The notes beneath the pieces are model-generated. The model did not search any database. It worked only from the letters and a program-made list of their open reading frames with translations, and was not told the origin of the DNA. Source: a virus. From it: a stretch of 39,768 nucleotides of DNA. A program made the position numbers and the translations under genes. Below, piece by piece: positions 12,663-38,640 of this stretch. Location: the IMG/VR virus record IMGVR_UViG_3300046011_005882, positions 1 to 39,768 of that record. One strand, 5' to 3'. Positions within the stretch are counted from its first letter, which is position 1, and each line of letters starts with the position of its first letter.

Positions 12663-13373
12663 TCAAGAAGTAATCACCTCCTTCAGTTGGTTGTTTGCGT
12701 ATGAAAATTTCCCGATCTTGATCCAGTATGATACCGTTTTTCGGTTTACGCAAAAATTCGCAGCGGCCTGATTTATGCTTTCAAAAATCAACCCGGTCGC
12801 AGATTCAAAAACAGGACGCCTGTGGTGTTTCCCTATTTGGTGCCGAAACTGACTGGACATCATCCGAATTTTAGCAGCCTTTCCTATTTTTCCTTTGTGT
12901 TCTTCGGACAGCGGCCTGCCGGTGTTTGCGGCGAGAAGTTTTTCACGATTATGCTTCGACATTGGCTTGCCGAGCCTTGCGACCGACATCTTCTTGCGGG
13001 CCTCAGCGGACGGAACCCTCCCGAGCATGGATGCTCTCATTTTTTCCCTGGTCTCTGCTGACGCGTTCAAAATTCCATCACCACCGTCGCTTGAATTTGT
13101 CAATCTACATCCAGTTTTGCGAAAGTGATTTATCCAAAACCGCTCACGCTCTTTCCAGTTTTCAGGAGTCGCTGTCTCAACATGAAGAATAACTGGGCGC
13201 TTATTTGCAGCAAGAATTGACCGGACCCATCGCGCCTTGTGGTGCTGCTCGAATTTTGAGTCGTAGATATGACCCCTAAGACGCTCCTCCAGCGACTTGC
13301 TCGTAAACCCAACATACCTCACATCCAGAGTATCTGGATCATGCAGTGTGTAGATTTTGTAGGGCTCAGCCAT
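12663..13373 (-). CDS. GIY-YIG homing endonuclease with NUMOD repeats
   Basis: The first 95 residues form a GIY-YIG nuclease domain: KIYTLHDPDTLDVRYVGFTS carries the Y...YVG version of the motif, RLRGHIYDSK supplies the catalytic-helix Arg, and EERERFWINHFRK-type text follows with the Glu/Trp region (WKERERFWINHF). Then TNSSDGGDGI and three NUMOD3-like repeats (SAETREKMRASMLGR, SAEARKKMSVARLGK, SEEHKGKIGKAAKIR) form the DNA-contacting linker, and FESINQAAANFCVNRKTVSY is a C-terminal NUMOD1-type helix-turn-helix. This is the standard modular build of mobile phage homing endonucleases. It abuts the RusA locus, so RusA is a plausible homing site. Target site unknown. Confidence 0.9.
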   Translation of the reverse strand: MAEPYKIYTLHDPDTLDVRYVGFTSKSLEERLRGHIYDSKFEQHHKARWVRSILAANKRPVILHVETATPENWKERERFWINHFRKTGCRLTNSSDGGDGILNASAETREKMRASMLGRVPSAEARKKMSVARLGKPMSKHNREKLLAANTGRPLSEEHKGKIGKAAKIRMMSSQFRHQIGKHHRRPVFESATGLIFESINQAAANFCVNRKTVSYWIKIGKFSYANNQLKEVITS

Positions 13374-13374
13374 A

Positions 13375-13748
13375 TCACTCCAGCTTCCAAATCCGGATTA
13401 TGGTTTCTTCGGGCTCCGGGCTTTTGATTTTTGTCTGGAAGACTGCGCCTTCGGAGAAAGCCTCTTTGTCGTCAAGTATTGCTCCAGCGTAAACGCAAGC
13501 GTCTTCAAGAGCTTTGGTTCCGCCGTAAAGGTTTGCCCTTGGGTCGATGAGTCTTCGGCGGCGGCTTTCAATGCTGATAAAACAGCGCGCTGCGTGGCCT
13601 CTCTCTCCTTCTTTCGCTGCCACCTGTTCTGTGCAAGTAGGACGTTCAGGCTCGGAACTTTCCTGTCCACACGCAAGACTATCCACGGGTCCCCCTCCGG
13701 GACTTTTGGCAGTGGTGGGTGAACCCATTTTTCGTTTTTGGTAGTCAT
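13375..13748 (-). CDS. RusA-type Holliday junction resolvase, split between two frames
   Basis: RusA cuts Holliday junctions and branched DNA in phage replication. The N-terminal part reads in one frame from ATG 13748: VLRVDRKVPSLNVLLAQNRW then RKKEREATQRAVLSALKAAA, matching the RusA N-terminal pattern (PSLN, then a basic helix). The C-terminal part reads in the -1 frame: RRRRLIDPRANLYGGTKALE then YAGAILDDKE, matching the conserved RusA end with its catalytic Asp residues (DP.ANL and LDD). The two halves meet near 13540-13580, close to a GCCGCCGCC run. Neither frame alone is a whole RusA. A sequencing indel, a real inactivating mutation or a programmed -1 shift could explain this. The C-terminal frame is open from ATG 13785. 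Confidence 0.65.
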
Positions 13749-13769
13749 CGAACCAGTTCTTAATTTGCT

Positions 13770-14090
13770 TCACGGCGTATTCCATTTCCCCAACTCACAC
13801 AGCAGCCCCAGCTCCCGGGCTTCCTTGGGATTCTCGCCGATCCAGTTGTGACATGGGCGGCAGACGGATGCCCAATGCTCACTCATGCAGAGCAGTCGGC
13901 CAATCCGTCCTCGCTTGTGGTGGATGTCGGTCGCTTTCTTCTTGCACCTTTCGCAGCGCGGCCTGGCGTGCAAGAACTGCTTCCGCAGCGTAGCGTATTC
14001 GCGAAGACGAGCATGGCGGACCTTGCTGATCGACGGGATGCGCGGACGGGGCTTGCGGGCTAGGCATTTGGGGTTCTGGTTGATTGCCAT
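13770..14090 (-). CDS. HNH endonuclease, small phage type
   Basis: The ATG at 14090 (MAINQNPKCLARKPRPRIPS) overlaps the MazG stop by one base. At 106 residues it is a compact HNH protein: RCERCKKKATDIHHKRGR gives CxxC and the DIHH metal site, and EHWASVCRPCHNWIGENPKE gives the second CxxC and the final H-N. Small HNH proteins of this kind occur beside terminase and replication genes, where some stimulate DNA packaging nicking; others are homing enzymes. All four zinc cysteines and the catalytic His pair are present, so it should be active. The gene before is a MazG-like hydrolase; the gene after is RusA. Confidence 0.85.
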   Translation of the reverse strand: MAINQNPKCLARKPRPRIPSISKVRHARLREYATLRKQFLHARPRCERCKKKATDIHHKRGRIGRLLCMSEHWASVCRPCHNWIGENPKEARELGLLCELGKWNTP

Positions 14091-14620
14091 CAGATGATGC
14101 CGGTGAAGTCGGGAGCCTTGTAGGTGGGCGGCTTGACCACCTTGTTCGTGTAGGCGCCCCGGACAACCCAACGCCCGTTCACCTTGTCAACGATGTGGCC
14201 GCCACTGTCAACCCCGCCCGGATACGTTTTCAGCGCATCCTCCTCGGTCCAGAGCTTCGTCTCGTTGGAGTCGCAGATGCGCTCAAGGATTTGGGCGAGG
14301 CTGAATCCCCGCTGGCCGCAGATCAGCTCCAACGTAAACCAAGCCTTGTTCACATGGGAAGGCCCACCTGCGTTCTCAAGGCCGACCAACGTGAAGGCGA
14401 TGTCGCCGATGGCGTCCACCTCGTCCTTGAGCGTCCCGTAGAGCTGGGCCTCCAGTAGCTCATCCCACTCCTCTCGGACGTATTGGAACTGCTGGGTGGG
14501 GAATTTCGGGTCTTGCAAGGGCTGTCCCATCGCCAGTTGCCAGTCGCGGATGCGGGCCTTCAGGGAGTCGTAGGTGACGGCAGCTAGGGCTGCCTTGTAG
14601 TCGGGGGAATCTTCGCTCAT
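14090..14620 (-). CDS. MazG-like nucleotide pyrophosphohydrolase
   Basis: The 176-residue protein has an all-alpha MazG-type core at about residues 40-95: QYVREEWDELLEAQLYG gives the ExxE metal-binding pair and LKDEVDAIGDIAFTLVG gives the matching ExxD pair. MazG-family enzymes hydrolyse NTPs to NMPs plus pyrophosphate; phage versions may clean the nucleotide pool or lower alarmone levels. The C-terminal 70 residues (EDALKTYPGGVDSGGHIV then WVVRGAYTNKVVKP) are common in phage relatives and may be a lid or a separate small domain. The start overlaps the methyltransferase stop by ATGA and the stop overlaps the HNH start. Substrate is not predictable here. Confidence 0.75.
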   Translation of the reverse strand: MSEDSPDYKAALAAVTYDSLKARIRDWQLAMGQPLQDPKFPTQQFQYVREEWDELLEAQLYGTLKDEVDAIGDIAFTLVGLENAGGPSHVNKAWFTLELICGQRGFSLAQILERICDSNETKLWTEEDALKTYPGGVDSGGHIVDKVNGRWVVRGAYTNKVVKPPTYKAPDFTGII

Positions 14621-15894
14621 TGAATCGTATTCTGTTGGTTCATCTGCTCAATTTTCATGAAGGCCGTCACGAACTCGGCTGCGACTTGCGGGACGATGGC
14701 GTTGCCTGCTCCCTTAAGGAGCGCAGGGCGGATGCTCCCGCGTCGTGCCAGCTTGTAGGAAAGCCCATCAGCCAGAGGGAAAAGTGCGGGTTCAGTTGGT
14801 ATCCTGCGGTGCTTTCCGTCGCGGCAGAGGAGCCATCGGGAGTCAGACCAGAAGGAGTGAACGCAGTCGCTTGCATCGACAGGTCGGTTATCGTTGCCGT
14901 ATCGCGCCCCATGTTGAGCTTCCGCTGCATGTGCGCCTCCGCAGTGCCACCGGGCTGATTGGCCGTCGGCGTAGCCCATCCAGCCATGCACACCTGCTGG
15001 CTCAGCGGAATCCCCGTGTCCTGTGGTCTCGGTGGCAATGATCCCCTCGCTCCGTCCGTTGCTGTCGGGGAGACCCATCCCGCTGGAAGTATCTTCGACT
15101 CCGCGTAACTCTCCCGGTTTCCATTGCCGGCCGTCATCGCCTGAACAAGGTCCTGCTCCGTCACCATTGAGCTTGTTGGAGATGGCCATCCCGCTAAGCT
15201 CGCCTGCGCCGTCAGCGTGTCCGCCACTCCCCTGCCGTGCCTCATTCCTGATGATTCCGAATCCTCGGCTCTTGGCGTCGCCCATCCAGCCAACTGCGCC
15301 ACCCTCGGAAGCTGATCCAGCCGCGATCTGGTTGATCCGTCCGGATTCGTGCCCGTCTCGCTCATCCCTGCTGTGTCCTTCCAGTCGCGGGCGGAGGCTG
15401 TTGGCCACCCAGTAAAGTCTTTGTCGGATGTGCGGCGCCCCGACGCTGTGTGCGCCCAATACGGTCGCCCCGCAGGCGTAACCTTCTGGCTCCAGGTCTG
15501 CCGATACTCCATCGAGCCAACCGTGAGCAATCGCGCTTGCAACCTGCTCCCCAAATACCTGCTGAGGTCGGCACTCGCGGATGAGATTAAAGAAGGCTGG
15601 CCACAGGTGGCGTTCGTCGAGCTGTCCGAGTCCTTTCCCAGCTGCGCTGAAGGGCTGACATGGACAACTTCCGGTCCAAATAGGTCTACTTGAGGGCCAT
15701 TGTGCCAGTTGTAGCGCGAGCGGCCAACCTGCGATTCCGCAGAAGAAATGACATTGGACATAGCTTTTCAGTTCATCCGGTTTGACATCCACGATTGATC
15801 GCTCGTCCACATCGCCCGGCGGGATGAGCCCGCCCTTGATAAGTTGCCTGAGCCAGTTTGCAGCAGATTTGTCGATTTCATTGTAGTAGTTCAT
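14617..15894 (-). CDS. C5 cytosine DNA methyltransferase
   Basis: It transfers methyl from S-adenosylmethionine to cytosine C5 in DNA, most likely to shield phage DNA from host restriction. Motif I is FFCGIAGWPLALQLA (about 50-64), motif IV SCPCQPFSAAGKG with the catalytic Cys (about 76-88), motif VI FGEQVAS (EQV in place of ENV), motif VIII PHIRQRLYWVA (about 154-164), and the C-terminal motif X is KGAGNAIVPQVAAEFVTAF. Between residues 165 and 360 the target-recognition region is Gly/Asp/Ser-rich with weak conservation. No cognate restriction enzyme is visible, so it is an orphan. A second long frame is nested inside it (14667-15761). The stop overlaps the MazG start. Confidence 0.9.
   Translation of the reverse strand: MNYYNEIDKSAANWLRQLIKGGLIPPGDVDERSIVDVKPDELKSYVQCHFFCGIAGWPLALQLAQWPSSRPIWTGSCPCQPFSAAGKGLGQLDERHLWPAFFNLIRECRPQQVFGEQVASAIAHGWLDGVSADLEPEGYACGATVLGAHSVGAPHIRQRLYWVANSLRPRLEGHSRDERDGHESGRINQIAAGSASEGGAVGWMGDAKSRGFGIIRNEARQGSGGHADGAGELSGMAISNKLNGDGAGPCSGDDGRQWKPGELRGVEDTSSGMGLPDSNGRSEGIIATETTGHGDSAEPAGVHGWMGYADGQSARWHCGGAHAAEAQHGARYGNDNRPVDASDCVHSFWSDSRWLLCRDGKHRRIPTEPALFPLADGLSYKLARRGSIRPALLKGAGNAIVPQVAAEFVTAFMKIEQMNQQNTIQ
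14667..15761 (-). CDS. Nested +1-frame protein in the methyltransferase gene, GWPTP-repeat family
   Basis: A 364-codon frame with its own ATG at 15761 lies wholly inside the methyltransferase gene. Its text is not random: GPQVDLFGPEVVHVSPS, SSASADLSRYLGSRLQARLL, YRQTWSQKVTPAGRPYWAHT, then repeated units GWPTASARDWKD, GWATPRAEDS, GWPSPTSS, GWVSPTATDG and GWATPTANQPGG, and a LNPHFSLWLMGFPTSW end. From memory this series (tryptophan-pro repeats, then LNP..SRWLMGYP.EW) is a family widespread in phages and often labelled methyltransferase-like, although it has no methyltransferase motif. Both frames therefore look coding over about 1.1 kb. Its function is unknown. Confidence 0.6.
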   Translation of the reverse strand: MSNVISSAESQVGRSRYNWHNGPQVDLFGPEVVHVSPSAQLGKDSDSSTNATCGQPSLISSASADLSRYLGSRLQARLLTVGSMEYRQTWSQKVTPAGRPYWAHTASGRRTSDKDFTGWPTASARDWKDTAGMSETGTNPDGSTRSRLDQLPRVAQLAGWATPRAEDSESSGMRHGRGVADTLTAQASLAGWPSPTSSMVTEQDLVQAMTAGNGNRESYAESKILPAGWVSPTATDGARGSLPPRPQDTGIPLSQQVCMAGWATPTANQPGGTAEAHMQRKLNMGRDTATITDLSMQATAFTPSGLTPDGSSAATESTAGYQLNPHFSLWLMGFPTSWHDAGASALRSLREQATPSSRKSQPSS

Positions 15895-16190
15895 TTTCCG
15901 CCAATTTGTTTAGCAATCATCGGGGCCACATCCGTCCACAGCCAATCCTTGCAAGCCTCGCGGGCCACACGGATGTGGCGGCATTCCGATTTCTTGCCGG
16001 CCCGTCGCTCCACACCCACCACGAACGCAAACCGCTCACAGTCGCACTGGCCAGCCCACGAAGCCTCTTCGAGGTCAACGAAGTGGGACTTGCCCGGTCT
16101 TGACTTGCTGCCCACCCGGAACCGGAAGTATTCGCCGTCCAGACGCTCCACCTTCCAGTCGTTGGGGGAGGTTGATTCCTGGTCGCTCAT
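15891..16190 (-). CDS. SWIM zinc-finger protein, small
   Basis: From the ATG at 16190 the protein is 99 residues. It carries a SWIM motif (CxC-xn-CxH): Cys49 and Cys51 in GQCDCERFAF and Cys70 and His72 in KKSECRHIR, on an alpha/beta background that begins YFRFRVGSKS. SWIM domains bind DNA or protein partners in recombination and repair factors and in transposase-like proteins. Here the domain is nearly the whole protein, between the helicase and the methyltransferase, so a DNA-binding or accessory role in replication or modification is likely. The stop overlaps the methyltransferase start (ATGA). Confidence 0.75.
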   Translation of the reverse strand: MSDQESTSPNDWKVERLDGEYFRFRVGSKSRPGKSHFVDLEEASWAGQCDCERFAFVVGVERRAGKKSECRHIRVAREACKDWLWTDVAPMIAKQIGGK

Positions 16191-16212
16191 TGTCAATGGG
16201 GAATTTACGGGG

Positions 16213-17565
16213 TTAGAGGATGGGGGATTCGGGGTCGAAGCGGGTGAGCCATGGACGGAACTTGAATTTCAGGTCAATCCCGGCAATGCCGCCGCGCTGC
16301 TTGGCCACCAGCATGTTGATGGACACGGGGCTGAGGCGATCCCGCTTGTCGTCCTCCTCCTTCTCGCTCGGGTCGTAGAGCATCCCCACAAAGTCCGCAT
16401 CCTGCTCAATGCTTCCGCTTTCACGGAGGTCGCTCAGGCGGGGCTTGCGCTTCTTCTCCTTGTCGAACTCCCGGTTCAACTGGGCCAGCACGATGATGGG
16501 GATTTTCAACTCCTTGGCGAGCAGCTTGATGGAGCGGCTGATGTGGTCCACTTGTTCGCGGCGGTCCTTTCCCTTGTGGGATTCGACGAGTTGCAGGTAG
16601 TCGATGCCGAGGACCTGAATCTTCTTCGACACCACCCACCGCCGAGCCTTGGCGGCAATGGCGGCCACCGAGGAGTTTGGCCGGTCTGAGATGGAGAACT
16701 TCATGGCCTTCATCCGTCGGGCCGCACCAGCCATCTGCTTGCCCTGCTCATCGGACGGATGGTTCTGCTGGTGGAACGCGGTCACGTCGATCTCGGACTC
16801 AACGGACAGCATCCGGTCGCCCAGTTCAGCCGCGTCCATCTCCAGCTCGATCAGCCCGACGCTCGCACCGCTGGTCCGGCAGACGCTCATCAGCAAGCTC
16901 ACCAGAACGGCTGTCTTGCCCGTTCCCGGGCGGCCGGCAATCACGTAGTAGCGGCTCGGCTTGAGCCCGCCCTTGGTGATGCCGTCGAAATTGCTCCAGC
17001 CAGTCCGCAAGGCATCCACATTCCCACGGATGCGCTCGTTGATGGCCGCGAAGGAGGCGATGGCCACCGACTTGCCGTCGTGGTCCTCAGCTTCCGAGGA
17101 AACTCGGAAGGCCCCGATGGCCATGACGTTCTGCTCAAACCCGCTGACCAGCTCCTCAACCCCGCCCTCGCACTGGCTGGCGGAAGCGATGGTGGTGGTG
17201 CATGTCGCGATGACGCACCGAAGGACGTGTTTCTCCCGAAGGATGTCGATGTAGTAGGACAGGTTGGCCGCGCTGGGAACCCGGTTGGGGATTTCGGATA
17301 GCCGCGCCATCCCGCCGCACATATCCAGCGTCCCGTCTGCCTTGAGCTTCTGGTGGAGGGTGATGATGTCCACCGGCTGGCGGGCCTCATACATCGACAG
17401 CAGCGCCGAGTAGATGTCGCGGTTGCGGATGTCGTAGAAACAATCCGGGCCAGCCTTCAGGGATTCAAGGCACTTGCCGATGGATTCGTTCGGGGACAGC
17501 AAGCAGCAGGCTAGGATTCCCTCCTCCGCCTCGATGGAGTGGGGCGGGATTGTTGGGTCCTTCAC
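16213..17565 (-). CDS. dnaB: Replicative DNA helicase, DnaB family
   Basis: This is a hexameric 5'-3' helicase that unwinds DNA at the fork. Residues 1-125 are the DnaB N-terminal helical domain (PPHSIEAEEGILACCLLSPN, NRVPSAANLSYYIDILREK). The RecA-like motor follows: Walker A AGRPGTGKT at about 210-218, Walker B GIDYLQL at about 320-326, the H3 Gln in VLAQLNRE, and the arginine-finger loop RLSDLRESGSIEQDAD at 376-391. The end WLTRFDPES is typical. At 450 residues it is full length. It overlaps the initiator gene by ATGA, which gives an initiator-helicase pair like lambda O-P or P22 18-12. Because the phage has its own DnaB, it needs no helicase borrowing. Confidence 0.95.
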   Translation of the reverse strand: MKDPTIPPHSIEAEEGILACCLLSPNESIGKCLESLKAGPDCFYDIRNRDIYSALLSMYEARQPVDIITLHQKLKADGTLDMCGGMARLSEIPNRVPSAANLSYYIDILREKHVLRCVIATCTTTIASASQCEGGVEELVSGFEQNVMAIGAFRVSSEAEDHDGKSVAIASFAAINERIRGNVDALRTGWSNFDGITKGGLKPSRYYVIAGRPGTGKTAVLVSLLMSVCRTSGASVGLIELEMDAAELGDRMLSVESEIDVTAFHQQNHPSDEQGKQMAGAARRMKAMKFSISDRPNSSVAAIAAKARRWVVSKKIQVLGIDYLQLVESHKGKDRREQVDHISRSIKLLAKELKIPIIVLAQLNREFDKEKKRKPRLSDLRESGSIEQDADFVGMLYDPSEKEEDDKRDRLSPVSINMLVAKQRGGIAGIDLKFKFRPWLTRFDPESPIL

Positions 17566-18686
17566 TTACCACCCCCGTTGTCCATCATCAGTTCGGCCAG
17601 CTTGTCCCGGAGCTGGTTGTATTCCCGGGATTCCTCCTGGGTGGGTTGACGGCCGCTGTCCAGAACCCGCTCCATGTCCGCCGGGTGGGTTGCCAGCTTG
17701 GATCGAATCTCGTCGATCAGCTTCTGGTGGGGGTGGAAGGGTTTGGGCTGAGCCGATGCTGAATCCTGTTTTTTGGAAGGCCCCCAAGAGTAAGCCCGGT
17801 CGATCTCCCCGTTCCAGTTTCTCAGCAGCGTGATGATGTCCTTGCGGATATACTGATAGCCCGATGCGTAGTAGGATTCCAGCGCCACCATGTCCTCCTC
17901 GGAGGTTCCCAAGGAGAGAACCTTCCGAAGCTGTGAAAGCTCCCCATCCTGCCAAGCCGTTTTAGGCCGGCGACCCATCATCTTGCACACCCGCAGCCGC
18001 AACGCTTCCAGTTTCGACGGGGGGGCCGGCGGAACGTGGGGGGCTTCGCCTTGGGAAGGAGCAGCTTTTAGGGAAGCAACTTGGCTATCCCGCTCGGCTT
18101 TCAGGTCTTCCTCGTCCGGGACAAGATACCTTCCAGCCAAGATTCCCGGTTGGTCATTTTCACCTGATGTCTTTAGTAGAGGTCTAAGGACGTTACAGTT
18201 AGTAAGGAACTGCTCATTTTGAGCACATCCCATTTGCTCAATTTGAGCAGATGGCAGTTGCTCATTTTGACCATGCTCAATTTGGGCAGATGGGATCAAT
18301 TTCCCGCCGCCATCAAGGCCACAAAACTCCCCGGACTGGACCTTCAACCACATCGACCACCTGACCGAATAGTGCTTTCGGCGGCTTGCCTTTCCCTCGG
18401 GCTGCTTGGAGATGAGCAGGTTGTTGTCCTCCAGCAGCCCGATGATGCGGCGGATGGTTGACCTGCTCAGCCAATCGAACTCTCCCTCAAGCTCGTCCAG
18501 CGTGAAGTAGACCCACTTGTAGCCATCATCGTCCAGCGATCCGATTTTGGACCGCCCGTTGGATGGGCACGTCCACCACACGAATCGCTGAAGGATTATG
18601 GCGCAATCGGACCCGAAAATCTTGGCCGCAGCCCGCTCGCACTGAAGCGGCTGCTGCATTGTGAATGGAAGGGGATTGCCGTTCAT
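17562..18686 (-). CDS. Replication initiator, lambda O-like winged-helix protein
   Basis: The N-terminus (about 10-115) is a winged-helix domain: LQCERAAAKIFGSDCAIILQ, then WVYFTLDELEGEFDWLSRST and IRRIIGLLEDNNLLISKQPE, the same pattern as replication proteins that read origin repeats. The middle (140-165) is encoded by 15-bp repeats that give SAQIEHGQNEQLPSAQIEQ, so this part of the protein is a by-product of DNA iterons. The C-terminal half is a DnaD-like or helicase-loader region (about 230-310) with a charged tail. Directly downstream is DnaB. The layout copies lambda O, whose origin lies in its own gene. An alternative name is DnaD-like loader. The stop overlaps dnaB. Confidence 0.75.
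   Translation of the reverse strand: MNGNPLPFTMQQPLQCERAAAKIFGSDCAIILQRFVWWTCPSNGRSKIGSLDDDGYKWVYFTLDELEGEFDWLSRSTIRRIIGLLEDNNLLISKQPEGKASRRKHYSVRWSMWLKVQSGEFCGLDGGGKLIPSAQIEHGQNEQLPSAQIEQMGCAQNEQFLTNCNVLRPLLKTSGENDQPGILAGRYLVPDEEDLKAERDSQVASLKAAPSQGEAPHVPPAPPSKLEALRLRVCKMMGRRPKTAWQDGELSQLRKVLSLGTSEEDMVALESYYASGYQYIRKDIITLLRNWNGEIDRAYSWGPSKKQDSASAQPKPFHPHQKLIDEIRSKLATHPADMERVLDSGRQPTQEESREYNQLRDKLAELMMDNGGGK
18211..18288. repeat. Iterons inside the initiator gene: candidate replication origin
   Basis: Four 15-bp near-palindromes TGCTCA(A/T)TTTGxxCA begin at 18211, 18235, 18259 and 18274. The first two are TGCTCATTTTGAGCA and TGCTCAATTTGAGCA; the third and fourth differ by one or two bases in the right half. 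The steps are 24, 24 and 15 bases. Repeats of this type inside an initiator gene are the pattern of lambda-type origins. An AT-rich unwinding region is not clearly visible next to them. Confidence 0.7.
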
Positions 18687-18696
18687 TGGTCACAGA

Positions 18697-18774
18697 AACA
18701 AAAAGAGCCATCCCGTGCGTGGTGAAGATTGAGATGCCGCCCAAAGAGATAAAGCAGCACGCGCACGGAATGGC
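18697..18774 (-). terminator. Long-loop hairpin with T tract upstream of the initiator
   Basis: On the minus strand GCCATTCCGTGCGCGTG pairs with CACGCACGGGATGGC (about 15 bp, small bulge, 36-base loop) and is followed by TCTTTTTGTTTC. The stem spans 18707-18774. It fits a terminator or attenuator that ends the small-gene operon or controls read-through into the initiator. The large loop makes attenuation or protein binding possible. Confidence 0.55.
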
Positions 18775-18866
18775 CCAAAATGGTTCATTTCTCTTCTGTT
18801 TTCACATCGCCAGGGTCTTCACTCCCTCGCAACGCCCCCACAACTACCCCGACCGCCCGGGCCGGG
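18775..18866. other. Short leader segment with no gene
   Basis: The interval between the hairpin and the next minus-strand stop holds no convincing frame on either strand. I see no further repeat or site in it. Confidence 0.5.
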
Positions 18867-19133
18867 TCAACTGGATTTGCTCAACTCCTCCAGAAACTCG
18901 TCGCAGTTGTTGGCTGCGGCTGCAAGCTCCTGCCAATAACGGTCGCGGCAGTCGGGTTGCATGACCCACGGGTCTGGCCGGCCGATCTTGTCGGCCACCC
19001 TCCACCACTTACTGGACGGCCCGTTGGTGTGCATCCCGGTGACTTTCTGGCCGGGCTGGAAGTTGTCCACGCCGTAGCCAAGCTCGATCACCCCGTCTGG
19101 CTTTCCCCAGACTTTTGCGTAGGTGGCCTTCAC
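18867..19133 (-). CDS. Hypothetical protein, 88 aa
   Basis: This gene uses a GTG start at 19133 that overlaps the upstream stop (GTGA). The protein MKATYAKVWGKPDGVIELGY begins with a small beta-rich part (FQPGQKVTGMHTNGPSSKWW) and ends in a helix with an acidic end (AANNCDEFLEELSKSS). I recognise no family. It is the last of a chain of coupled tiny genes and is followed by a long hairpin with a T tract. Confidence 0.6.
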   Translation of the reverse strand: MKATYAKVWGKPDGVIELGYGVDNFQPGQKVTGMHTNGPSSKWWRVADKIGRPDPWVMQPDCRDRYWQELAAAANNCDEFLEELSKSS

Positions 19134-19369
19134 TTCCCCATCCTCCTCCGCTCGATCTCATCCTGTAAATCCCGCTCCAGCCCGTCAGCCCGCAGCCGAT
19201 ACAGCTCCGCCTTCATGGCCAGCACAGCCTCGTAGGTGGTGGATTCCGGGTCCCTGCACCAGTCGCCCACCTCAAGCCCGATTGAGCCCAGCATGGACGC
19301 TTGACTGGCGCATTCAAGCAGCCGGTGGTAGTGGGACTTGCTGATCTTTACGGTCTTTTCCTTCTTCAT
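19130..19369 (-). CDS. Hypothetical helical protein, 79 aa
   Basis: The ATG at 19369 (MKKEKTVKISKSHYHRLLEC) has a good ribosome binding site (AGGAAGGA, 6-8 bases upstream); a longer start lies inside the previous gene. The sequence is nearly all helix, with a Lys-rich N-terminus and a charged C-terminal helix (YRLRADGLERDLQDEIERRR). It may be a small DNA-binding or coiled-coil regulator. No family is recognised. Confidence 0.6.
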   Translation of the reverse strand: MKKEKTVKISKSHYHRLLECASQASMLGSIGLEVGDWCRDPESTTYEAVLAMKAELYRLRADGLERDLQDEIERRRMGK

Positions 19370-19523
19370 GGTTTTCCTTCCTCTCCGAATCCTCCATCGT
19401 TCCAATCAAGTCATCACACGGCTTCCCACACCAAGAGCAGCGGTAGAACAGGGTGGTCTTCCCTTCAACCCTACATTCCTGGCCGCAGCAGCTTGAGGCG
19501 GTTTTCAATCCCACGGCCTCCAC
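19314..19523 (-). CDS. Small putative zinc-ribbon protein, 69 aa
   Basis: A GTG start at 19523 is preceded by GAGGAGG at good spacing. The protein has CCGQECRVEGKTTLFYRCSW then CGKPCDD: two Cys clusters 14 residues apart, as in small zinc-ribbon proteins. The last 25 residues are charged, and 56 bases overlap the next gene in another frame. The long overlap lowers confidence in the tail, not in the Cys domain. Confidence 0.5.
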   Translation of the reverse strand: MEAVGLKTASSCCGQECRVEGKTTLFYRCSWCGKPCDDLIGTMEDSERKENHEEGKDRKDQQVPLPPAA

Positions 19524-19660
19524 CCCACGTCCTCCTCATCACCACGGGGCTTCCGGGAAGGGCCTTCCTCGGGCTCTGGCGGGTCCTCCACGGGCTCGGG
19601 AGGCAGATTGGCTACCAACTTACCGGAAACGACCTTGAAGGCCCTCAGATCGGCCGTCAT
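19505..19660 (-). CDS. Hypothetical Pro/Glu-rich small protein, 51 aa
   Basis: The ATG at 19660 overlaps the stop of the preceding small membrane protein (ATGA). It encodes MTADLRAFKVVSGKLVANLP followed by a Pro/Glu-rich stretch and ends DVGWRPWD. It is short and disordered in appearance. Support is the tight coupling on both sides and consistent spacing; no function is assigned. Confidence 0.45.
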   Translation of the reverse strand: MTADLRAFKVVSGKLVANLPPEPVEDPPEPEEGPSRKPRGDEEDVGWRPWD

Positions 19661-19788
19661 AGGATCAGCTTGGCGAGGGTGAAGGCCCCGAAGACGGCCA
19701 ATCCAAACATCAGGGCGCTCAGGGCCAGCAGCAAGAGCAGCCCCCAGTTGGGGCCGGAAGGGCCGGCGGGTTGAGGGTCGTAGGTCAT
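19657..19788 (-). CDS. Small single-pass membrane protein, 43 aa
   Basis: The ATG at 19788 follows a near-perfect ribosome binding site (GAGGAGG, 5 bases upstream). It encodes a short polar N-terminus (MTYDPQPAGPSGPN) and one hydrophobic helix from residue 15 to the end (LLLLLALSALMFGLAVFGAF). It could be a small holin, an inhibitor of superinfection or another membrane peptide. It is coupled to both neighbours by ATGA overlaps. Confidence 0.6.
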   Translation of the reverse strand: MTYDPQPAGPSGPNWGLLLLLALSALMFGLAVFGAFTLAKLIL

Positions 19789-20018
19789 GGAATCCTCCTC
19801 AGTGATCCGGCGCGAACAAGGGACGCTCCGAGTTCACCGGGCTTGGGGTCCGGATAGGCCACCGTATCCCGGATTGGACGATACCCAACGCTGGGAGCCG
19901 CATTCCGCATCGCATTCCAGTGGGTTGTTGGCCAGCCAGATGCCAATGCGTGGATGGAAGGGTATAGGCCCGGCGCTCCGTGTTGGGCGGCCCGGTTGAG
20001 GTGGTCTTGGGAGGTCAT
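19785..20018 (-). CDS. Hypothetical protein, 77 aa
   Basis: The start is an ATG at 20018 with AAGGA six bases upstream (MTSQDHLNRAAQHGAPGLYP). The sequence contains a compact HWNAMRNAAPSVGYRP stretch and ends LVRAGSLRRIP. There is no recognised family, signal peptide or membrane helix. Its stop overlaps the next start by ATGA. Confidence 0.5.
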   Translation of the reverse strand: MTSQDHLNRAAQHGAPGLYPSIHALASGWPTTHWNAMRNAAPSVGYRPIRDTVAYPDPKPGELGASLVRAGSLRRIP

Positions 20019-20034
20019 CTGGATTCCTTGTCGC

Positions 20035-20313
20035 TCATTGAACCTCCGCCTTGATGGTTTCGAGAATCGCTTCCCGGTAGGCGATGGCGTCCCGCTTGAG
20101 CAGGAAGAACTCGGTGTAGGAGAAATCGTCGCCCCGGAAAGTAAGCTCAACCTCCCAGCCAATGAGCCAATTACGGCTTACCATCAGATATTCAAGGTTT
20201 CCAACCTCAACCACATCCCCGTTGGGCAGGCGCATGTAGGGAGCGCCCCAGTCATCAGGTTCAGATTTGGGGAGATTGAACTTTGATGGGCCTCTGTATG
20301 ATTGATTATTCAT
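20035..20313 (-). CDS. Hypothetical protein, 92 aa, first gene of the leftward small-gene operon
   Basis: I chose the ATG at 20313 (MNNQSYRGPSKFNLPKSEPD). The frame is also open to a TTG at 20358, but that TTG is part of the repeated TTGCCTATTGACA motif, so it is more likely a control element than a start. The protein has a central beta-rich part (VVEVGNLEYLMVSRNWLIGW) and a C-terminal helix (LKRDAIAYREAILETIKAEV). No family is recognised. It is the first gene of the minus-strand run that leads to the initiator and helicase. Confidence 0.6.
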   Translation of the reverse strand: MNNQSYRGPSKFNLPKSEPDDWGAPYMRLPNGDVVEVGNLEYLMVSRNWLIGWEVELTFRGDDFSYTEFFLLKRDAIAYREAILETIKAEVQ

Positions 20314-20345
20314 TGCCCGGGTAGGGTTGGCGGGAGGGGCGGGGT

Positions 20346-20358
20346 TGTCAATAGGCAA
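20346..20358 (-). promoter_or_regulatory. TTGCCTATTGACA motif, copy A
   Basis: Exact 13-base motif, 32 bases upstream of the ATG at 20313 on the minus strand. It is one of four exact copies in the window, three of them on the plus strand (27702, 31565, 37685). A sigma-70 -10 box at 17 bases is not evident. Confidence 0.55.
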
Positions 20359-21111
20359 ATCTCACGCCTGTTGCAAACGCATAGCCAATCCCTCCAAGGA
20401 ACAACCCAGCCCCCACAGGACAGCCCAGCTAGGCAGGAATTGCCCGTAAAGAGAGGCTTTCCCACAGGATAGGCAAGGAGAGGCTATCCAGCAGCCTCGT
20501 AGAGGGCAGGAAGGGCTGCCGAGGCTATGGGGAAGATGGGGGAATGCCGCCTAGACCAGCCTATGGGGAACGTGGGGCGATTGCGGGGCTTTGGGGAATG
20601 GGACAATCCGGCCAGTCAATCCCGGGTAGCTGATGAATACATTGCCTCCCAAGAAATGGAAAGCCCAGCCGGTAGCTGGCAAATCAACCTCGGGCGATGG
20701 TCGTCTTAACCTACCCTGGCCTCCTGTCGCGGGCCGTTGATCCCTTTGGCAAGCTCAGCCTGCCCGTTTTAATCGGCGAGTGGGTTGTTCCCCCATTCCG
20801 ATCCATCCCTTCACCCGTGGGCCGCCTGAAGCGATTCCCAGAGGCTACGCGGCCAACCTATTCCCGGTCGGCAGGGAGAGTGAAAAGCCAGCCGTTTGGG
20901 AAATCCAGCCAAAAAAACCCAAAGCCAAATTGGGAAATGGGCTGAGACGGTTACGCAGGAACCTATTTGATACCACCCGCACCCAGGGGCCGCCCAAGAG
21001 GTCCTGCCCCCGGCATCTGACCGCTCCCGAATTGCCACGGAAAGTCTCCTTCTGTAAGTGCTTGCGGCGCAAGGCGGGCGGGTTTGTTGTCGTGTTCTAC
21101 GGGATTTCACA

Positions 21112-23047: not shown

Positions 23048-23413
23048 ATGAAAACCACCCCACTAAACGAAATCCTGAAGCAAATCACGCCGTTGCCTTG
23101 GGTTGCGGATTCCATCGGCATATGGCCGGTGGACACATCCCGCGGCTGGACCGTCGCAGATTGCTCTCATGCGGCGCTTGACCCAGAATATCAAGTCAGA
23201 CCTGAGCAGTCGGCAAACGCCGCATACCTAACCCACGCCGCCAACGTCCTGCCGGGGCTGGTTGAGGCTTTGCGGGAGTGTCGCGAAATGCTGGCCGTGG
23301 CAATGAACGCGGAGGAAAATCCGTTTGGAATCCACCACAACCAAGCCACCGACGCGATTTCCCTGGCTGAAATCACACTCGCCACCGCAACCAACGTCCC
23401 AACAAATTCCTAA
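23048..23413 (+). CDS. Phage hypothetical protein, 121 aa
   Basis: It starts MKTTPLNEILKQITPLPWVA with AAAGGAAACC just upstream. The centre NAAYLTHAANVLPGLVEALR is the common phage motif ANAAYL.HA.N.LP.LVEAL; the front (PLPWVADSIGIWPVDT) is the matching LPW motif. The family is widespread in phages with no known function. A distant relative lies at 26211 in this window (LPWSVHE, AAANAEYIVKVVNLAPEMVE), so the two are probably old duplicates. Confidence 0.7.
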   Translation: MKTTPLNEILKQITPLPWVADSIGIWPVDTSRGWTVADCSHAALDPEYQVRPEQSANAAYLTHAANVLPGLVEALRECREMLAVAMNAEENPFGIHHNQATDAISLAEITLATATNVPTNS

Positions 23414-23422
23414 GGCTATCCG

Positions 23423-23632
23423 ATGAGCACAACCTACACCACCGACCGCGACCGCAACGGAAACCGGATTGTCCGGGTAACTATCCCCGGCGCCCGCCCC
23501 TTCACTATCCAAACGAACGGCGACCTGCCCGAAACCCACCGTAATGGCATCTGCCCCGCGACGGCCGGGGAGGTTGCGGAATACGTCCGCCAGTTCGGGA
23601 CGGTCCGCCAGCGAGAACTTTTGGGCCTGTGA
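23423..23632 (+). CDS. Hypothetical protein, 69 aa
   Basis: This starts MSTTYTTDRDRNGNRIVRVT, a short beta-rich domain (VRVTIPGARPFTIQTNGDLP), then a helix with VAEYVRQFGTVRQRELL. It is typical of small accessory phage proteins; no function is known. It follows an AATTCCTAAG element and lacks a clear ribosome binding site. Confidence 0.55.
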   Translation: MSTTYTTDRDRNGNRIVRVTIPGARPFTIQTNGDLPETHRNGICPATAGEVAEYVRQFGTVRQRELLGL

Positions 23633-23652
23633 ATTTCCTAAGGGTCAACGCA

Positions 23653-23805
23653 ATGAATACGAAAATTGAACGCAACAAGGCTGGTCGATGCTGGCGTTGG
23701 TCTGTCACCGACAACGCGGGCAACCTACTGGCCGGCGGCTACTGCCGGACCAAGCGGGATGCCCGGAATGATTCCGCAATCTGGATTTCCAGCCGTAACC
23801 CCTAA
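23653..23805 (+). CDS. Small basic hypothetical protein, 50 aa
   Basis: An ATG at 23653, 13 bases after an AATTTCCTA element, encodes MNTKIERNKAGRCWRWSVTD, continuing NAGNLLAGGYCRTKRDARND and ending ISSRNP. The sequence looks like a compact beta-hairpin/helix fold with two Cys and many Arg/Lys. Homologues of this size occur in other phages; the function is unknown. Confidence 0.55.
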   Translation: MNTKIERNKAGRCWRWSVTDNAGNLLAGGYCRTKRDARNDSAIWISSRNP

Positions 23806-23820
23806 CCCCCATTGCTCCCC

Positions 23821-24369
23821 ATGAAACTATCCGAAGCCTCCCCATTCCTACGCGGCTACATAGAAGCCGCCCTCTTTACCACCGACGCCTATCCGCCCTC
23901 TGGATGCGATTACGCCGAATGCGGGCGGGCCGCTGAGTTGGCGCCGGAACTCCCCGCTTGGTGGATTCTGGAAGCGGACGTTGCTTGCCGTGGATTCCAG
24001 GAAGCCAACGCTGAATTGCTGGCCAAGGCCGGCGACGAAGAGCAAAACGGGCGGGACTTCTGGTATTCCCGGAACGGCCACGGCGTAGGCTTCTGGGACC
24101 GGGGATATCCGGACGAAATCGGGGATGCTTTGCAGGACGCCGCGAAGGTTTTCAGCGACCACTACCTTTCCCCCGAAGATTTCGGGCAGGTGAGCGACGA
24201 GTGGCTTCAGGATAACGGGCGGTCCGTTGCCCGCAATCCGGAGACGGGCCGCTGGTATTTCGAGACGGCTGATTCTGAGGTTGAGCAATGGGCATCCGAA
24301 GAGGAATTCGAGAGCCGGGAAGAGGCCGCCAAGGCGTGCAAAGAGGACTTTGAGATGGAAGCCAAGTAA
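23821..24369 (+). CDS. Conserved phage protein (FLRGYIEAAL family), 182 aa
   Basis: I chose the ATG at 23821 (MKLSEASPFLRGYIEAALFT). The signature FLRGYIEAALFT, then WYSRNGHGVGFWDRGYPDEI and ALQDAAKVFSDHYL, is that of a small phage family found in many accessory regions (N-terminal FLRGYIEAALW..., central DFWLTRNGHGAGFWDRG). Its last 40 residues are acidic. The function is unknown; the conserved His/Asp/Asn around GHG suggest a site of activity or binding. The gene lies in the early accessory array and is preceded by a short spacer without a strong ribosome binding site. Confidence 0.75.
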   Translation: MKLSEASPFLRGYIEAALFTTDAYPPSGCDYAECGRAAELAPELPAWWILEADVACRGFQEANAELLAKAGDEEQNGRDFWYSRNGHGVGFWDRGYPDEIGDALQDAAKVFSDHYLSPEDFGQVSDEWLQDNGRSVARNPETGRWYFETADSEVEQWASEEEFESREEAAKACKEDFEMEAK

Positions 24370-24404
24370 TTTCCTAGACTACAAACGAACAAGCTACAAA
24401 ACCG

Positions 24405-24857
24405 ATGAAAACTGTCACACTAAACGAAGATCAGCGGCTATACGTAATCCCATGCGGCGACGGCTATTCCTGCCTTGGGTTTGACGTGTGCGAGAAGCGG
24501 ACGGTTGCCCTTGCCCGGGAGCTTGCTGCCCTTGGCGAGTCAATCCCGCAACCGGAGCCAGTCGGGACGCTGGCCCGTTACCAGCAATACCGCGAGCTTG
24601 TGGACAAGGCATTTGAGCACAACCGGGCAACCGGCTGGCGCTCCGAATCGGAACTGACTCCGGAGCTGGTCGGATACGAGGGCAAGCGGGTGGAAGTCCG
24701 CCACCGCTATGGCGCCGACAAGGCGGTTGAGGTTGTCCGGTTCATTGTCGGGAAATCTATGGGATGGATTCCCGTCCATCTTGAAATCAAAACCAAGCGG
24801 TCAACCGGCGGTGGCGCCGTGTGCCTTGGTGAAATCCTCAGCGTCCGCGCCGTGTGA
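24405..24857 (+). CDS. Conserved phage hypothetical protein, 150 aa
   Basis: It starts MKTVTLNEDQRLYVIPCGDG and continues YSCLGFDVCEKRTVALAREL, the signature of a phage family (RLYVIPCGGGYSCLGFDV). The C-terminal half (LVGYEGKRVEVRHRYGADKA, EVVRFIVGKSMGWIPVHLEI) is a small beta-rich domain that ends with GEILSVRAV. No function is known. The gene is preceded by AATTTCCTAG 28 bases upstream. Confidence 0.7.
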   Translation: MKTVTLNEDQRLYVIPCGDGYSCLGFDVCEKRTVALARELAALGESIPQPEPVGTLARYQQYRELVDKAFEHNRATGWRSESELTPELVGYEGKRVEVRHRYGADKAVEVVRFIVGKSMGWIPVHLEIKTKRSTGGGAVCLGEILSVRAV

Positions 24858-24879
24858 CAATTTCCTAGAGGACACTGCA

Positions 24880-25236
24880 ATGAAAAAGCAAACCGACTCC
24901 CTCCCCACCCTCCTCGCCAACCACCGCAACAAGCTCGCCCGGTTTTACGATAACGGCGGGCCGGATAACGGCGGATCATTCGACCAGTTCACGGCGGTCT
25001 ACCTCCGCCCCTTGCGCCATGAGGAAACCGGGGAACCTTTGGCTTGGGAATATGCGGCCATGAGTTCCAATCCGTTCCATCCGCAAGGCTTCGGCCAGCA
25101 TGGCGCCACCCGGAGCGGTCCGTGCGACTTCCCGCCTTGCCGCCTTGGCAAGCGCAATCACCTTGGCAAGCGCATCCGGTTCGAGGACTTGCCGCCCGAT
25201 TGCCAACGGCTGGTTGTTCATGATTTGATTTCCTAA
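24880..25236 (+). CDS. Conserved phage hypothetical protein, 118 aa
   Basis: The ATG at 24880 follows AATTTCCTAG by 11 bases (MKKQTDSLPTLLANHRNKLA). The central part NGGSFDQFTAVYLRPLRHEE and YAAMSSNPFHPQGFGQHGAT is the signature of a phage family (DRYTV.F... Y.GMS..PFHPQG.GQH). The end RIRFEDLPPDCQRLVVHDLI matches the same family. The function is not known. No transmembrane helix or signal peptide is present. Confidence 0.7.
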   Translation: MKKQTDSLPTLLANHRNKLARFYDNGGPDNGGSFDQFTAVYLRPLRHEETGEPLAWEYAAMSSNPFHPQGFGQHGATRSGPCDFPPCRLGKRNHLGKRIRFEDLPPDCQRLVVHDLIS

Positions 25237-25249
25237 CCCATAACCACCC

Positions 25250-27526: not shown

Positions 27527-27759
27527 ACCCCACCCACTACCGAATCTACCTGCCCGGCAAGGGGGAGATGCGGACCATCGCCTCGGGCAGTGTGGCGGTT
27601 GAGGAGTTCATCCAACTGAGGCGCCTGTGGCGGCAGGGGAAGATTGTCGGTGAGCCGCAGATGACGTGCCCGGGAGTCCAGTTCCCCCATGAAAAGGAAA
27701 GTTGCCTATTGACAGGAGAATCCAAAACAGCAACCATTTTGGCGAAATCAAAACCATGA
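27523..27759 (+). CDS. Hypothetical protein, 78 aa
   Basis: GTG at 27523 overlaps the upstream stop (MNPTHYRIYLPGKGEMRTIA). A short beta-rich part is followed by a basic helix (EEFIQLRRLWRQGKIVGEPQ) and a Cys-containing end. Its 3' end contains the TTGCCTATTGACA motif and overlaps the next ATG. No function is known. Confidence 0.5.
   Translation: MNPTHYRIYLPGKGEMRTIASGSVAVEEFIQLRRLWRQGKIVGEPQMTCPGVQFPHEKESCLLTGESKTATILAKSKP
27702..27714 (+). promoter_or_regulatory. TTGCCTATTGACA motif, copy B
   Basis: Exact copy, 41 bases upstream of the ATG at 27756 and inside the end of the preceding gene. Confidence 0.5.
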
Positions 27760-28061
27760 AATCACACATCGTCCGATTCTGCATTTCAATCCCAATCACG
27801 GCCTATTCTTGCGCCCTTTCCGGGGTTGCCATATCCACCCTGTGGGGTTGGTTTGTTGCCGGGAAGTTCGGTCTTCCTGCGCTTTCAACTCTTGAAGCAA
27901 TTGGGGTCTATCTCGTCTTCAGCTACATGGCCTACCAGTCCCCCAAGGGAAGCGACATGGATGAAGACCCGGACAAGGTGCTGGTAAGCGCGGCCATCAT
28001 GGGCGCCATCCGGCCGGTGTTTGCGATTGCGCTTGGGGCCATCGTTAAATCGTTGATGTAA
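27756..28061 (+). CDS. Membrane protein, 101 aa, about three helices
   Basis: The ATG at 27756 overlaps the previous stop. Hydrophobic segments are at about 8-33 (FCISIPITAYSCALSGVAIS), 46-62 (LEAIGVYLVFSYMAY) and 80-98 (AIMGAIRPVFAIALGAIVKS), separated by short polar loops with an acidic GSDMDEDPDK turn. It resembles small multi-pass membrane proteins of prophages; holin or superinfection exclusion are possible. It is followed by a 488-base gene-free interval. Confidence 0.6.
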   Translation: MKSHIVRFCISIPITAYSCALSGVAISTLWGWFVAGKFGLPALSTLEAIGVYLVFSYMAYQSPKGSDMDEDPDKVLVSAAIMGAIRPVFAIALGAIVKSLM

Positions 28062-28085
28062 AACCAGCTTGCAATTCTGAATCTC

Positions 28086-28430
28086 ATGAACAAAACATCT
28101 TCACGTCACGGGAGCGAAAGCTCCACTGGAGTAGATTCCAGCAAGGACTGGTCGATTCAACAGGGGTCTGGCGATGCGCCTACAAGCCTTCAGCCCTCAT
28201 CCCACTGCCGAATCTCCACCTGTCCCTGTTCGGGTAATTCGGAATCTACCTTGGGATGGGGGTTCTTTTTCTACGTGGCAAACGTCCCGGGGTGGCTCCC
28301 GGTTCTGACGGTGGTAGCTAGCAGGACCACAACGGTAGGGCGAAGCCCACGGACCGTGCGGAGGGCAGGCAACTGCGTAACTCGTGGACTTCGGGCTCTG
28401 GATCGCCTCACGGTTTTGAGGCAAGCCAAC
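28086..28430 (+). ncRNA. Candidate large structured RNA in a 488-bp gene-free interval
   Basis: The interval 28062-28549 holds one frame of 155 codons (28086-28553), rich in Ser/Arg/Thr with no family text, so I treat the DNA as non-coding. Perfect hairpins follow each other: GGAGC-GAAA-GCTCC (28110-28123), CTGGA-GTAGAT-TCCAG, GGCG-ATG-CGCC, an 11-bp long-range stem of CCCTCATCCCA (28194) with TGGGATGGGGG (28252) that encloses CCGAAT/ATTCGG, CCGGG/CCCGG, GGTTCTG/CAGGACC, ACGGT/ACCGT around GGGC-GAA-GCCC, and GCCTCA/TGAGGC. The end of the long stem (CTACCTTGGGATGGGGGTTC) resembles the end of the RNA-like element near 38810. Strand is inferred from neighbours. Class unknown. Confidence 0.5.
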
Positions 28431-28549
28431 GCTCCCTATCAATCCCTTGCTTTGCTGCGGGGGATGGAGGGGGCGTTCGGGATGGACCGCTCTTCGGTTT
28501 TGAATGAGGCTGGGAAGAACAAGGAATCCGGGGAAGCGAAGGGAACCCT

Positions 28550-28924
28550 ATGAGCCAGCCAACCTTCCCCTCCATAGACCAATCCCCGGCGGGCCTTGAC
28601 TGGGGGTTCGGCCCGTCCTCGATGAAGCTGTTCCGCATCCGGTTCAACCAATGGGCCAAGCGGACTGGCAATGATGCTCCCTGCGGCTTCCGGGCTGGCC
28701 CGAATAAGGCCACCGCCTTGCGCCGGAAACGGCCCGCCAAGCGATTGGGAGACGCTCCGGGACTCTCGGTAGCGGAGGCTGCCAAATTGGCTGGTATGCT
28801 GCCGGCCACATTGAGCAAGGATGTGGGGAGGGGGAAGATCAAGGCCACCCGGCTGGGCCATCGGACAGTCCGGATTGATGAGGAGGAGTTGACGAGATAC
28901 CTGAAATCGAAAGGAACCAAGTGA
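28550..28924 (+). CDS. Excisionase-like helix-turn-helix protein, 124 aa
   Basis: The last 60 residues hold a MerR/excisionase-type winged HTH: GLSVAEAAKLAGMLPATLSK, DVGRGKIKATRLGHRTVRID and EEELTRYLKSK. The first 60 are basic (FRIRFNQWAKRTGNDAPCGF, ATALRRKRPAKRLGD) and could contact DNA. It directly precedes and overlaps the integrase gene (GTGA), the usual place for a recombination directionality factor. A plain regulator is the alternative. Confidence 0.7.
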   Translation: MSQPTFPSIDQSPAGLDWGFGPSSMKLFRIRFNQWAKRTGNDAPCGFRAGPNKATALRRKRPAKRLGDAPGLSVAEAAKLAGMLPATLSKDVGRGKIKATRLGHRTVRIDEEELTRYLKSKGTK

Positions 28925-29952
28925 CCATGGACAACCCCATCCAACCCCTCGCCATCGAAGGCCGGTGGGAGGTGGTGATGCCCTCGCAGGAGCCCGCCAA
29001 GCTCAAGCGGGGAGTCTACGAGCTGCCCCCGGCCCACGTCGTCATCGGCTGGTATCTGGCCGAGAAGAAGGGGGCTTGGACGGAATCCACCATCAGCCGC
29101 ACCATCGCAGCCCTCAAGATTTTCGAGCGGTGGCTGAATGGGCGGCAGTTGAGCCGGCAGACGATGGTGGACTACCGGGATTACCTCGCAGCCTACAGGA
29201 ACGGTGGAGTCACGCAGATCGAATGGTCCATCTGCCGGTCATTCATTGGCTGGCTGGTGAGGAACCGGTGGGTGGAGCCGAACGTCATCGAGTCCATCTC
29301 CCCGCCGCCCCCGAAGCGCCCACCTTCGAGGCCCCCCATCCGCGACCACCACTACCAGAAGCTCATGAAAACCAAGGGGGTCCATCCGATGGTCCGCTGG
29401 CTGGTCACGGTCATGTGGCACACGGGCATGGCCTTGGTGGATGCCCAGGAGCTGCGGTGGGACGAGGTGGACCTTGAGCGGATGGTGATTTCCAAGGTGA
29501 GACGGAAGACCAAGGCGTTCACCCGCCCCTGCATCATCCCCGTGGACCCGTCGGGAGTTCTTGCCTCGGAGCTTATCCGCTTGAACGACAAGAGCCTGCT
29601 TGATCAGGAAAGGGTCAGGAAGTTCCATCCCGAATACAACCGCAGCGAATATGTGGAGCCCGACGCGGCCCGAATGCGGGAGCACTCCCGATGGGGCAAT
29701 GCTTGGACGACCGCCCGGGAACTCGCGGGAATCAGTCCCGAATACTCCCCCCATTGCTTCCGGAGGGGGTTTGTGACCAAGCTGGTCGAGGGCGGGGTGA
29801 ACCCGTTGATTGGGTGCGCCATCACCGGCCACAGCAACCCCTCCACTTTCCTGGCCTACGCCACGATGGACCCGGAACGGGTTCGCGAGGAGATGGATAG
29901 GGCACTCCAGGAATCGGCAATGAAGGCGATGAGGAAAGGAAACAACCAATGA
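28921..29952 (+). CDS. int: Tyrosine recombinase (phage integrase) lacking the first catalytic arginine
   Basis: It integrates or excises the phage genome at att sites. Starts with GTG at 28921 (or ATG 28927). The N-terminal SAM-like arm domain spans about 30-130 (TIAALKIFERWLNGRQLSRQ) and the catalytic domain 135-343. Box II is clear: SPHCFRRGF (His278, Arg281), ITGHSNPST (His304) and the nucleophile Tyr313 in FLAYATMD. A Lys-rich beta2-beta3 turn is at SKVRRKTKAF. The usual box I motif TGLRxxE is TGMALVDAQELRW here, with Ala at the arginine position (about 171). This is known in IntDOT-type recombinases. The gene overlaps the excisionase-like gene. Confidence 0.85.
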   Translation: MTMDNPIQPLAIEGRWEVVMPSQEPAKLKRGVYELPPAHVVIGWYLAEKKGAWTESTISRTIAALKIFERWLNGRQLSRQTMVDYRDYLAAYRNGGVTQIEWSICRSFIGWLVRNRWVEPNVIESISPPPPKRPPSRPPIRDHHYQKLMKTKGVHPMVRWLVTVMWHTGMALVDAQELRWDEVDLERMVISKVRRKTKAFTRPCIIPVDPSGVLASELIRLNDKSLLDQERVRKFHPEYNRSEYVEPDAARMREHSRWGNAWTTARELAGISPEYSPHCFRRGFVTKLVEGGVNPLIGCAITGHSNPSTFLAYATMDPERVREEMDRALQESAMKAMRKGNNQ

Positions 29953-38406: not shown

Positions 38407-38409
38407 TCT

Positions 38410-38554
38410 CAAGTTCAGCGCATCCAGAAATGGGTCGTGGCTAGACGGAAGATACTTCTCAACTGGATTCCATCCGATTCGCGAGTCGGAATCACTTGTG
38501 TCAACACAAGCTGGATGAAGGTGATGTCGAAATGCTTCCAGTGCGCTGAACTTG
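38410..38554. ncRNA. Candidate multi-branch RNA closed by a perfect 13-bp stem
   Basis: CAAGTTCAGCGCA (38410-38422) pairs perfectly with TGCGCTGAACTTG (38542-38554), with about 119 bases between. Inside are CTTGTG-TCAA-CACAAG (38495-38510), TCCAG/CTGGA extending the closing stem (38423 with 38511), GATTCC/GGAATC (38466 with 38488) and GAAG-ATA-CTTC. No frame on either strand is convincing. The strand is unknown. It may be a separate RNA or part of the transcript that holds the element at 38641. Confidence 0.5.
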
Positions 38555-38640
38555 GGGTTGTTCAATGAGGGGCGGGAGATGCACTTACTAGTTAGTCATC
38601 AAAAGCAGCGACCTGACTCAATCCCATCCAATTAACGCCA

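Follow-up and report, generated by a model that had tools for sequence, protein, structure and literature searches.

The window analysed here is IMG/VR virus record IMGVR_UViG_3300046011_005882 over its full length of 39,768 bases. On its + strand, an element at 28062-28549 lies between a membrane-protein gene of phrog_2169, which ends at 28061, and an excisionase-like gene (xis), which it abuts directly from upstream and on the same strand; a tyrosine integrase gene (int) completes the neighbourhood (Table 1). A weak ArdA-like gene is found 2.3 kb upstream of the element, and the window contains no tRNA or tmRNA. Searches of 50,697 phage records reveal no close relative of the integrase, and the best-ranked records for DnaB reach at most ~34% identity. 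A second IMG/VR record of the same phage, contig 3300046009_006871 (L027), matches window 6216-20814 at 100% identity.

This neighbourhood also occurs in L003 and L004, two near-identical IMG/VR phage contigs that are counted as one allele because they are identical across the element. Identity between the window and L003 is 54-80% in 60-base bins of the element, compared with ~95% at the DNA level for xis and int, and the divergence shifts near 28059 and near 28530. L003 lacks the membrane-protein gene, its own upstream gene stopping directly before the element. These borders, together with the differing upstream gene of L003, suggest that the element behaves as an exchangeable module, and this behaviour makes a diverged homologue available for comparison. 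The phrog_2169 gene (window 27716-28058) is missing from L004 as well, and the C-terminus of the small gene preceding it differs past the junction. Integrase, excisionase and DnaB searches of viral contigs lead only to L003/L004, and an integrase search of 84,980 genomes gives no further allele of the element. The same two contigs are the only carriers of the element recovered with DNA patterns built on its best-conserved blocks (four run on viral contigs, one on genomes); those of the other pattern matches that were inspected resemble coding sequence or lack the structure. A fifth pattern, over the stem of helix f, has zero matches in viral contigs, L003 included, and BLAST of the element against phages and plasmids returns nothing real. 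All statistical tests are calculated on one pairwise alignment (window/L003) of two distinct alleles, fewer than the depth that R-scape calls for.

The original prediction had placed a phage structured RNA at this locus, describing a hairpin-dense stretch with at least eight perfect hairpins and an 11-bp long-range stem. The individual structures are present: nine perfect hairpins of at least 4 bp lie within 28062-28549, and the 11-bp stem is exact (CCCTCATCCCA at 28194-28204 with TGGGATGGGGG at 28252-28262, then TTCTTTTTC). Their density is unexceptional, the nine hairpins of at least 4 bp comparing with 7.7 ± 2.2 in dinucleotide shuffles, 108 of 300 of which reach nine. Stems of at least 5 bp number four in the element versus 2.2 in shuffles, and 30 of 161 same-size windows of the phage reach that number. 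The single-sequence folding energy of the element is also unremarkable (z -1.4 and -1.3 for the + and - strands, respectively). As hairpin number and folding energy are both ordinary, hairpin density alone would not justify an RNA call, and the structured-RNA claim draws its support instead from compensatory changes in the sole available homologue.

One line of this support is RNAalifold folding of the aligned window and L003 sequences, tested against column shuffles in which conservation and gaps are preserved. Region 28062-28275 gives z values of -6.4 (0/60 shuffles) and -6.0 (0/100) on the + strand and of -3.7 and -3.3 on the - strand. In 18 control stretches from the same phages the values lie between -1.4 and +1.6, except for a single + strand value of -3.5 and a single - strand value of -3.2; the former comes from window 23594-23809, which we interpret as two small genes. 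The element has six stems that form in both sequences and show two or more double changes, against 1.6 in shuffles (1/500) and 0-2 in control regions (n = 6). A search for helices of at least 7 bp that show four or more double changes yields two in the element, PX1 and PX2 (Table 1), and none in the control regions; of 3,000 shuffles, 3 contain two such helices and none contains a nested pair. The named structure formed by a, PX1, PX2, f, h and j encompasses 41 pairs with 98.8% paired cells and 13 double changes (0/500 shuffles), and its pairing falls to 37-52% when the partner is slid by 1-3 columns. Because this structure was picked from the same two sequences, the RNAalifold z values and the search for helices with at least four double changes are the fairer tests. 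The covariation expected of a structured RNA in homologues is present in the form of compensatory changes between two alleles, and the data support a + strand structure that appears to have been kept between them in this way. We consider it quite unlikely that the element is functionless, a mosaic filler, rich in G+C, in which hairpins arise by chance and the covariation is an accident of two sequences: the ordinary hairpin density and folding energy and the number of alleles, two only, would agree with such a filler, but all comparative tests point in the same direction, which is not the case for most control stretches.

Table 1. Positions of the genes, the open frame and the predicted RNA features in the window, with the corresponding forms in L003.
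Feature	Position	Strand	Description
Whole divergent module	28062..28549	+	Homologous to L003:9139-9631 with ~70% identity; xis-int neighbourhood ~95% identical
155-codon open frame	28086..28553	+	Open in L003 too (L003:9163-9633); judged non-coding or without amino-acid constraint
Core of structured RNA (model R1)	28105..28275	+	Compensatory changes; column-shuffle z ~-6
Hairpin a	28111..28124	+	GGAGC/GCUCC, GAAA loop; L003 GGAAGC/GCUUCC; 1 double change
Hairpin b	28126..28141	+	CUGGAG/UUCCAG; L003 CUGGGU/GCCCAG; 2 double changes
PX1, 8 bp	28132..28139 with 28241..28248	+	UAGAUUCC with GGAAUCUA; L003 UGACGCCC with GGGCGUCA; 5 consecutive double changes in L003
PX2, 8 bp	28159..28166 with 28223..28230	+	AACAGGGG with UCCCUGUU; L003 GGCAAAGA with UCUUUGCC; nested in PX1; 4 double changes, counted after shifting one gap by one base
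Helix f (11-bp stem)	28194..28204 with 28252..28262	+	5' arm in PX2 apical loop; followed by U-rich tract UUCUUUUUC
Hairpin h	28218..28235	+	ACCU/GGGU; L003 GUCC/GGAC; 2 double changes, 1 single; loop holds PX2 3' arm
Hairpin in identical block	28281..28309	+	CGUCCCGGGGUGGCUCCCGGUUCUGACG; perfect, CCGGG/CCCGG, inside 34-base identical block
Hairpin j	28311..28330	+	GUGGU/ACCAC; L003 GUAGC/GCUAC; 2 double changes
Helix k	28332..28357	+	ACGGU/ACCGU; L003 UCGGC/GCCGA; encloses hairpin in both; 5-base indel, hand-aligned
Hairpin l	28365..28376	+	GCAG-GCAA-CUGC; L003 GAGCC-GCAA-GGCUU; stem differs, GCAA tetraloop kept; hand-aligned
Long hairpin o	28428..28477	+	AACGCUCCCU/AGGGGGCGUU; comparable hairpin in L003, hand-aligned
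Excisionase-like gene (xis)	28550..28924	+	HTH_17; phrog_66; directly 3' of element
Tyrosine integrase (int)	28921..29952	+	Phage_integrase; phrog_1

The predicted architecture includes a long two-part stem in the core, formed by PX1 and PX2, whose apical loop would pair just 3' of the stem through helix f. Since helix f crosses both PX1 and PX2, the arrangement is a pseudoknot; helix f is nearly invariant, so that its own covariation support is slight. In ordinary nested folding, f beats PX1/PX2 in the window (-66 vs -48 kcal/mol) and in L003 (-65 vs -61 kcal/mol). Both coexistence of f and PX1/PX2 as a pseudoknot and their exclusion as a switch are possible. A second competition involves hairpin b and the 5' arm of PX1, which are mutually exclusive over 28136-28139. 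A28130, U28137 and A28243 are all different in L003, a triple co-change that would be expected if b and PX1 both form at different times. Downstream of the core, a second hairpin domain (28276-28520) that may reach the xis ribosome-binding region is less certain: the 3' half of the element is weakly supported, as its + strand RNAalifold z is -2.1, with the exceptions of hairpin j and the hand-aligned helices. In the window, the xis ribosome-binding region can form a 12-bp helix with 28259-28270 (29/1,000 shuffles); the same pairing is not special in L003, which makes it a weak detail, and sequestration of the xis ribosome site was dropped as a candidate on this account.

The 155-codon frame matches no Pfam or PHROG family, consistent with the earlier description of the stretch as gene-free, and its ATG is preceded by no Shine-Dalgarno sequence. 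In both phages it is in phase with the stop codon that ends the upstream gene, and its own stop overlaps the xis start as ATGA, a TGA/ATG overlap that also occurs in neighbouring gene pairs. Joint openness of the frame in the two phages is reached in 0 of 20,000 column shuffles in that frame and in 3 of 20,000 in any frame, a rarity for which the RNA reading gives no account, and the two translations align with a BLASTP E value of 6e-27 at 42% identity. These properties would suit a fast-evolving protein gene in the xis operon, with the RNA structure as its by-product. However, substitutions are spread evenly over codon positions 1, 2 and 3 (30/116, 32/114 and 38/114, or 26, 28 and 33%), whereas xis shows 4/1/14 and int 12/5/43, and frame-shifting indels cause 136 of the 480 aligned columns to be read in different frames by the two phages. 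G+C content by codon position is likewise flat (0.54, 0.58 and 0.63, against ~0.6, 0.43 and 0.77 in genes). Both alleles have a codon score of -0.14, where 16 of 18 gene models score +0.08 to +0.52 and the other two ~-0.02, and changed codons have a mean BLOSUM value of 0.30, compared with 4.0-4.3 in xis and int. Absence of codon and third-position bias, together with the frame-shifting indels, indicates that the frame is not a conserved protein; with no protein match, no codon-position bias and atypical codon usage, a conserved product of this frame appears very unlikely, and we give the fast-evolving gene very little credence. An unconstrained translated leader is a possible reading of a frame that is open in both phages.

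The two phages agree in every base of a 34-base block (28278-28311), amid surroundings of 60-77% identity. This block could be the crossover core if the element acted as DNA, either as a single-stranded + strand structure or by providing attP-type recombination sites for the integrase and excisionase. Proximity to xis and int would accord with such a role, and the doubt between RNA and DNA has a precedent in the STAXI pseudoknot motif found near integrases (PMC2864571). We nevertheless regard a DNA element as unlikely, in view of the preference of the RNAalifold tests for the + over the - strand, of the 20-base core of the block, which occurs just twice in 84,980 genomes and neither time with similar flanks, and of the fact that repeated arm-type sites are not seen. 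The element has a 19-base hairpin core in common with L036:2090-2580 (- strand), a gene-poor and hairpin-rich region by a RepA-like ATPase gene. L036 was rejected as a relative, as the two share nothing beyond these 19 bases and the phage contig is unrelated; the resemblance is probably due to chance.

Comparison with Rfam (4,227 families) gives no match at gathering score, and none at E values up to 5 in the window. Matches in L003 are all sub-threshold and biologically implausible; a hammerhead (CUGAUGA) was rejected there because its Rfam score is sub-threshold only. The original prediction had also proposed kinship with an element near 38.7 kb or membership of another large phage RNA class, and neither proposal is supported. 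Likeness to the 38.7-kb element amounts to 22 of 31 bases at one terminus (pairwise E ~0.05), and the covariance model of core 28105-28275 finds nothing there, so that this relationship was dropped; as for the second proposal, no match is seen to any known class of large phage RNA, and the Rfam scan yields no family.

The int-alpA RNA is a structured RNA candidate that neighbours phage genes for an integrase or an excisionase-type regulator. The element resembles int-alpA and Lacto-int in adjoining genes of this kind, but hosts and sequences differ and the window has no Rfam match at E up to 5. STAXI, which is described in the same work that lists the Lacto-int motif (PMC2864571, Weinberg et al. 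2010), consists of two or three tandem copies of a short pseudoknot, in which UUCG loops are frequent, and occurs close to genes for integrases, antirestriction and other DNA-handling functions. Here too a pseudoknot, f crossing PX1 and PX2, is predicted beside xis-int, with the ArdA-like gene upstream; in contrast to STAXI it is long and present as a single copy, with one match to model R1 in each phage and none to any Rfam model. ROOL and GOLLD RNAs, which are sited near tRNA islands (PMC12286853), are similarly large, pseudoknotted and phage-borne, of about the same size class, but the window holds no tRNA and no match to their Rfam models. Pseudoknotted scaffolds are also known from mobile elements in the guide RNAs of TnpB and IscB (reRNA and omegaRNA), the TnpB reRNA having two pseudoknots (PMC11061315); the TnpB-type nuclease domain PF07282 is absent from the three phage records, with positive control genomes, and again no Rfam model matches. 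Nor do the three records encode a reverse transcriptase of PF00078, as would be found with retrons, DGRs or group II introns (control genomes positive); RT-less introns would escape this search, but no Rfam intron model matches.

Taken on its structure, which is much better supported than its function, the element 28062-28549 is probably a new regulatory RNA. Its simplest reading, in which we place about even confidence, is that of a structured, pseudoknotted + strand RNA acting in cis as a leader for xis-int. It would precede xis-int, as their leader, within a longer transcript, and consensus scans show no promoter inside it. The competition of hairpin b with PX1 for 28136-28139 and the U-rich tract after f suggest that the RNA may take two exclusive folds, which would alter either the passage of RNA polymerase or the access of ribosomes to xis. 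Choice between the folds would tie excision and integration to some signal, which might be a small molecule, a protein or the translation of upstream sequence. Against this reading stand the unremarkable single-sequence energy, the weak 3' half, the number of alleles and the fact that the scans show no strict terminator either. More speculatively, the element may represent a new class of pseudoknotted phage RNA, a two-fold switch that decides xis-int expression and is exchanged between phages as a module, a proposal we make tentatively.

As the main rival, and a less likely one, the same structure could be assigned to an RNA acting in trans, either a ~200-nt small RNA ending in the U-rich tract at 28262-28270 or the whole 490 nt, to which xis would be merely the next gene. 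The structure is strongest in the 5' part, which closes with the 11-bp stem and UUCUUUUUC, and the module moves between phages as one piece, as might be expected of such an RNA; the large phage RNAs ROOL and GOLLD, whose function is unassigned (PMC12286853), provide a parallel. On the other hand, L003 has a weaker U-rich tract following helix f (UUCUUUCCUUC), and consensus scans find neither a promoter nor a strict terminator, stem f being absent from the strict terminator list because of its long loop; an Rfam class match is lacking as well. Should the cis-acting leader be correct, a long pseudoknot would gate excision and integration at the RNA level in this phage group, creating a control point for the lysogeny decision unlike the usual control by repressor and promoter. 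Even without a leader role, the element would constitute a structured RNA family missing from Rfam, in a phage lineage without close sequenced relatives.

Two further observations were made in these phages. A second gene-free element, at window 38407-38556 and L003:18366-18456, keeps its outer stem (AGTTCAGCGCA ... TGCGCTGAACTT) while its interior has been replaced, that of L003 being wholly different and shorter, so that a conserved stem encloses an exchanged inside. In window 23400-25240, a motif resembling AATTTCCTAG/AATTTCCTAAG recurs a short distance 5' of the start codon in several small genes in a row (those at 23634, 24369, 24859 and 25229 among them) and is also present in L003; this recurring motif is possibly a shared ribosome-binding or regulatory leader.
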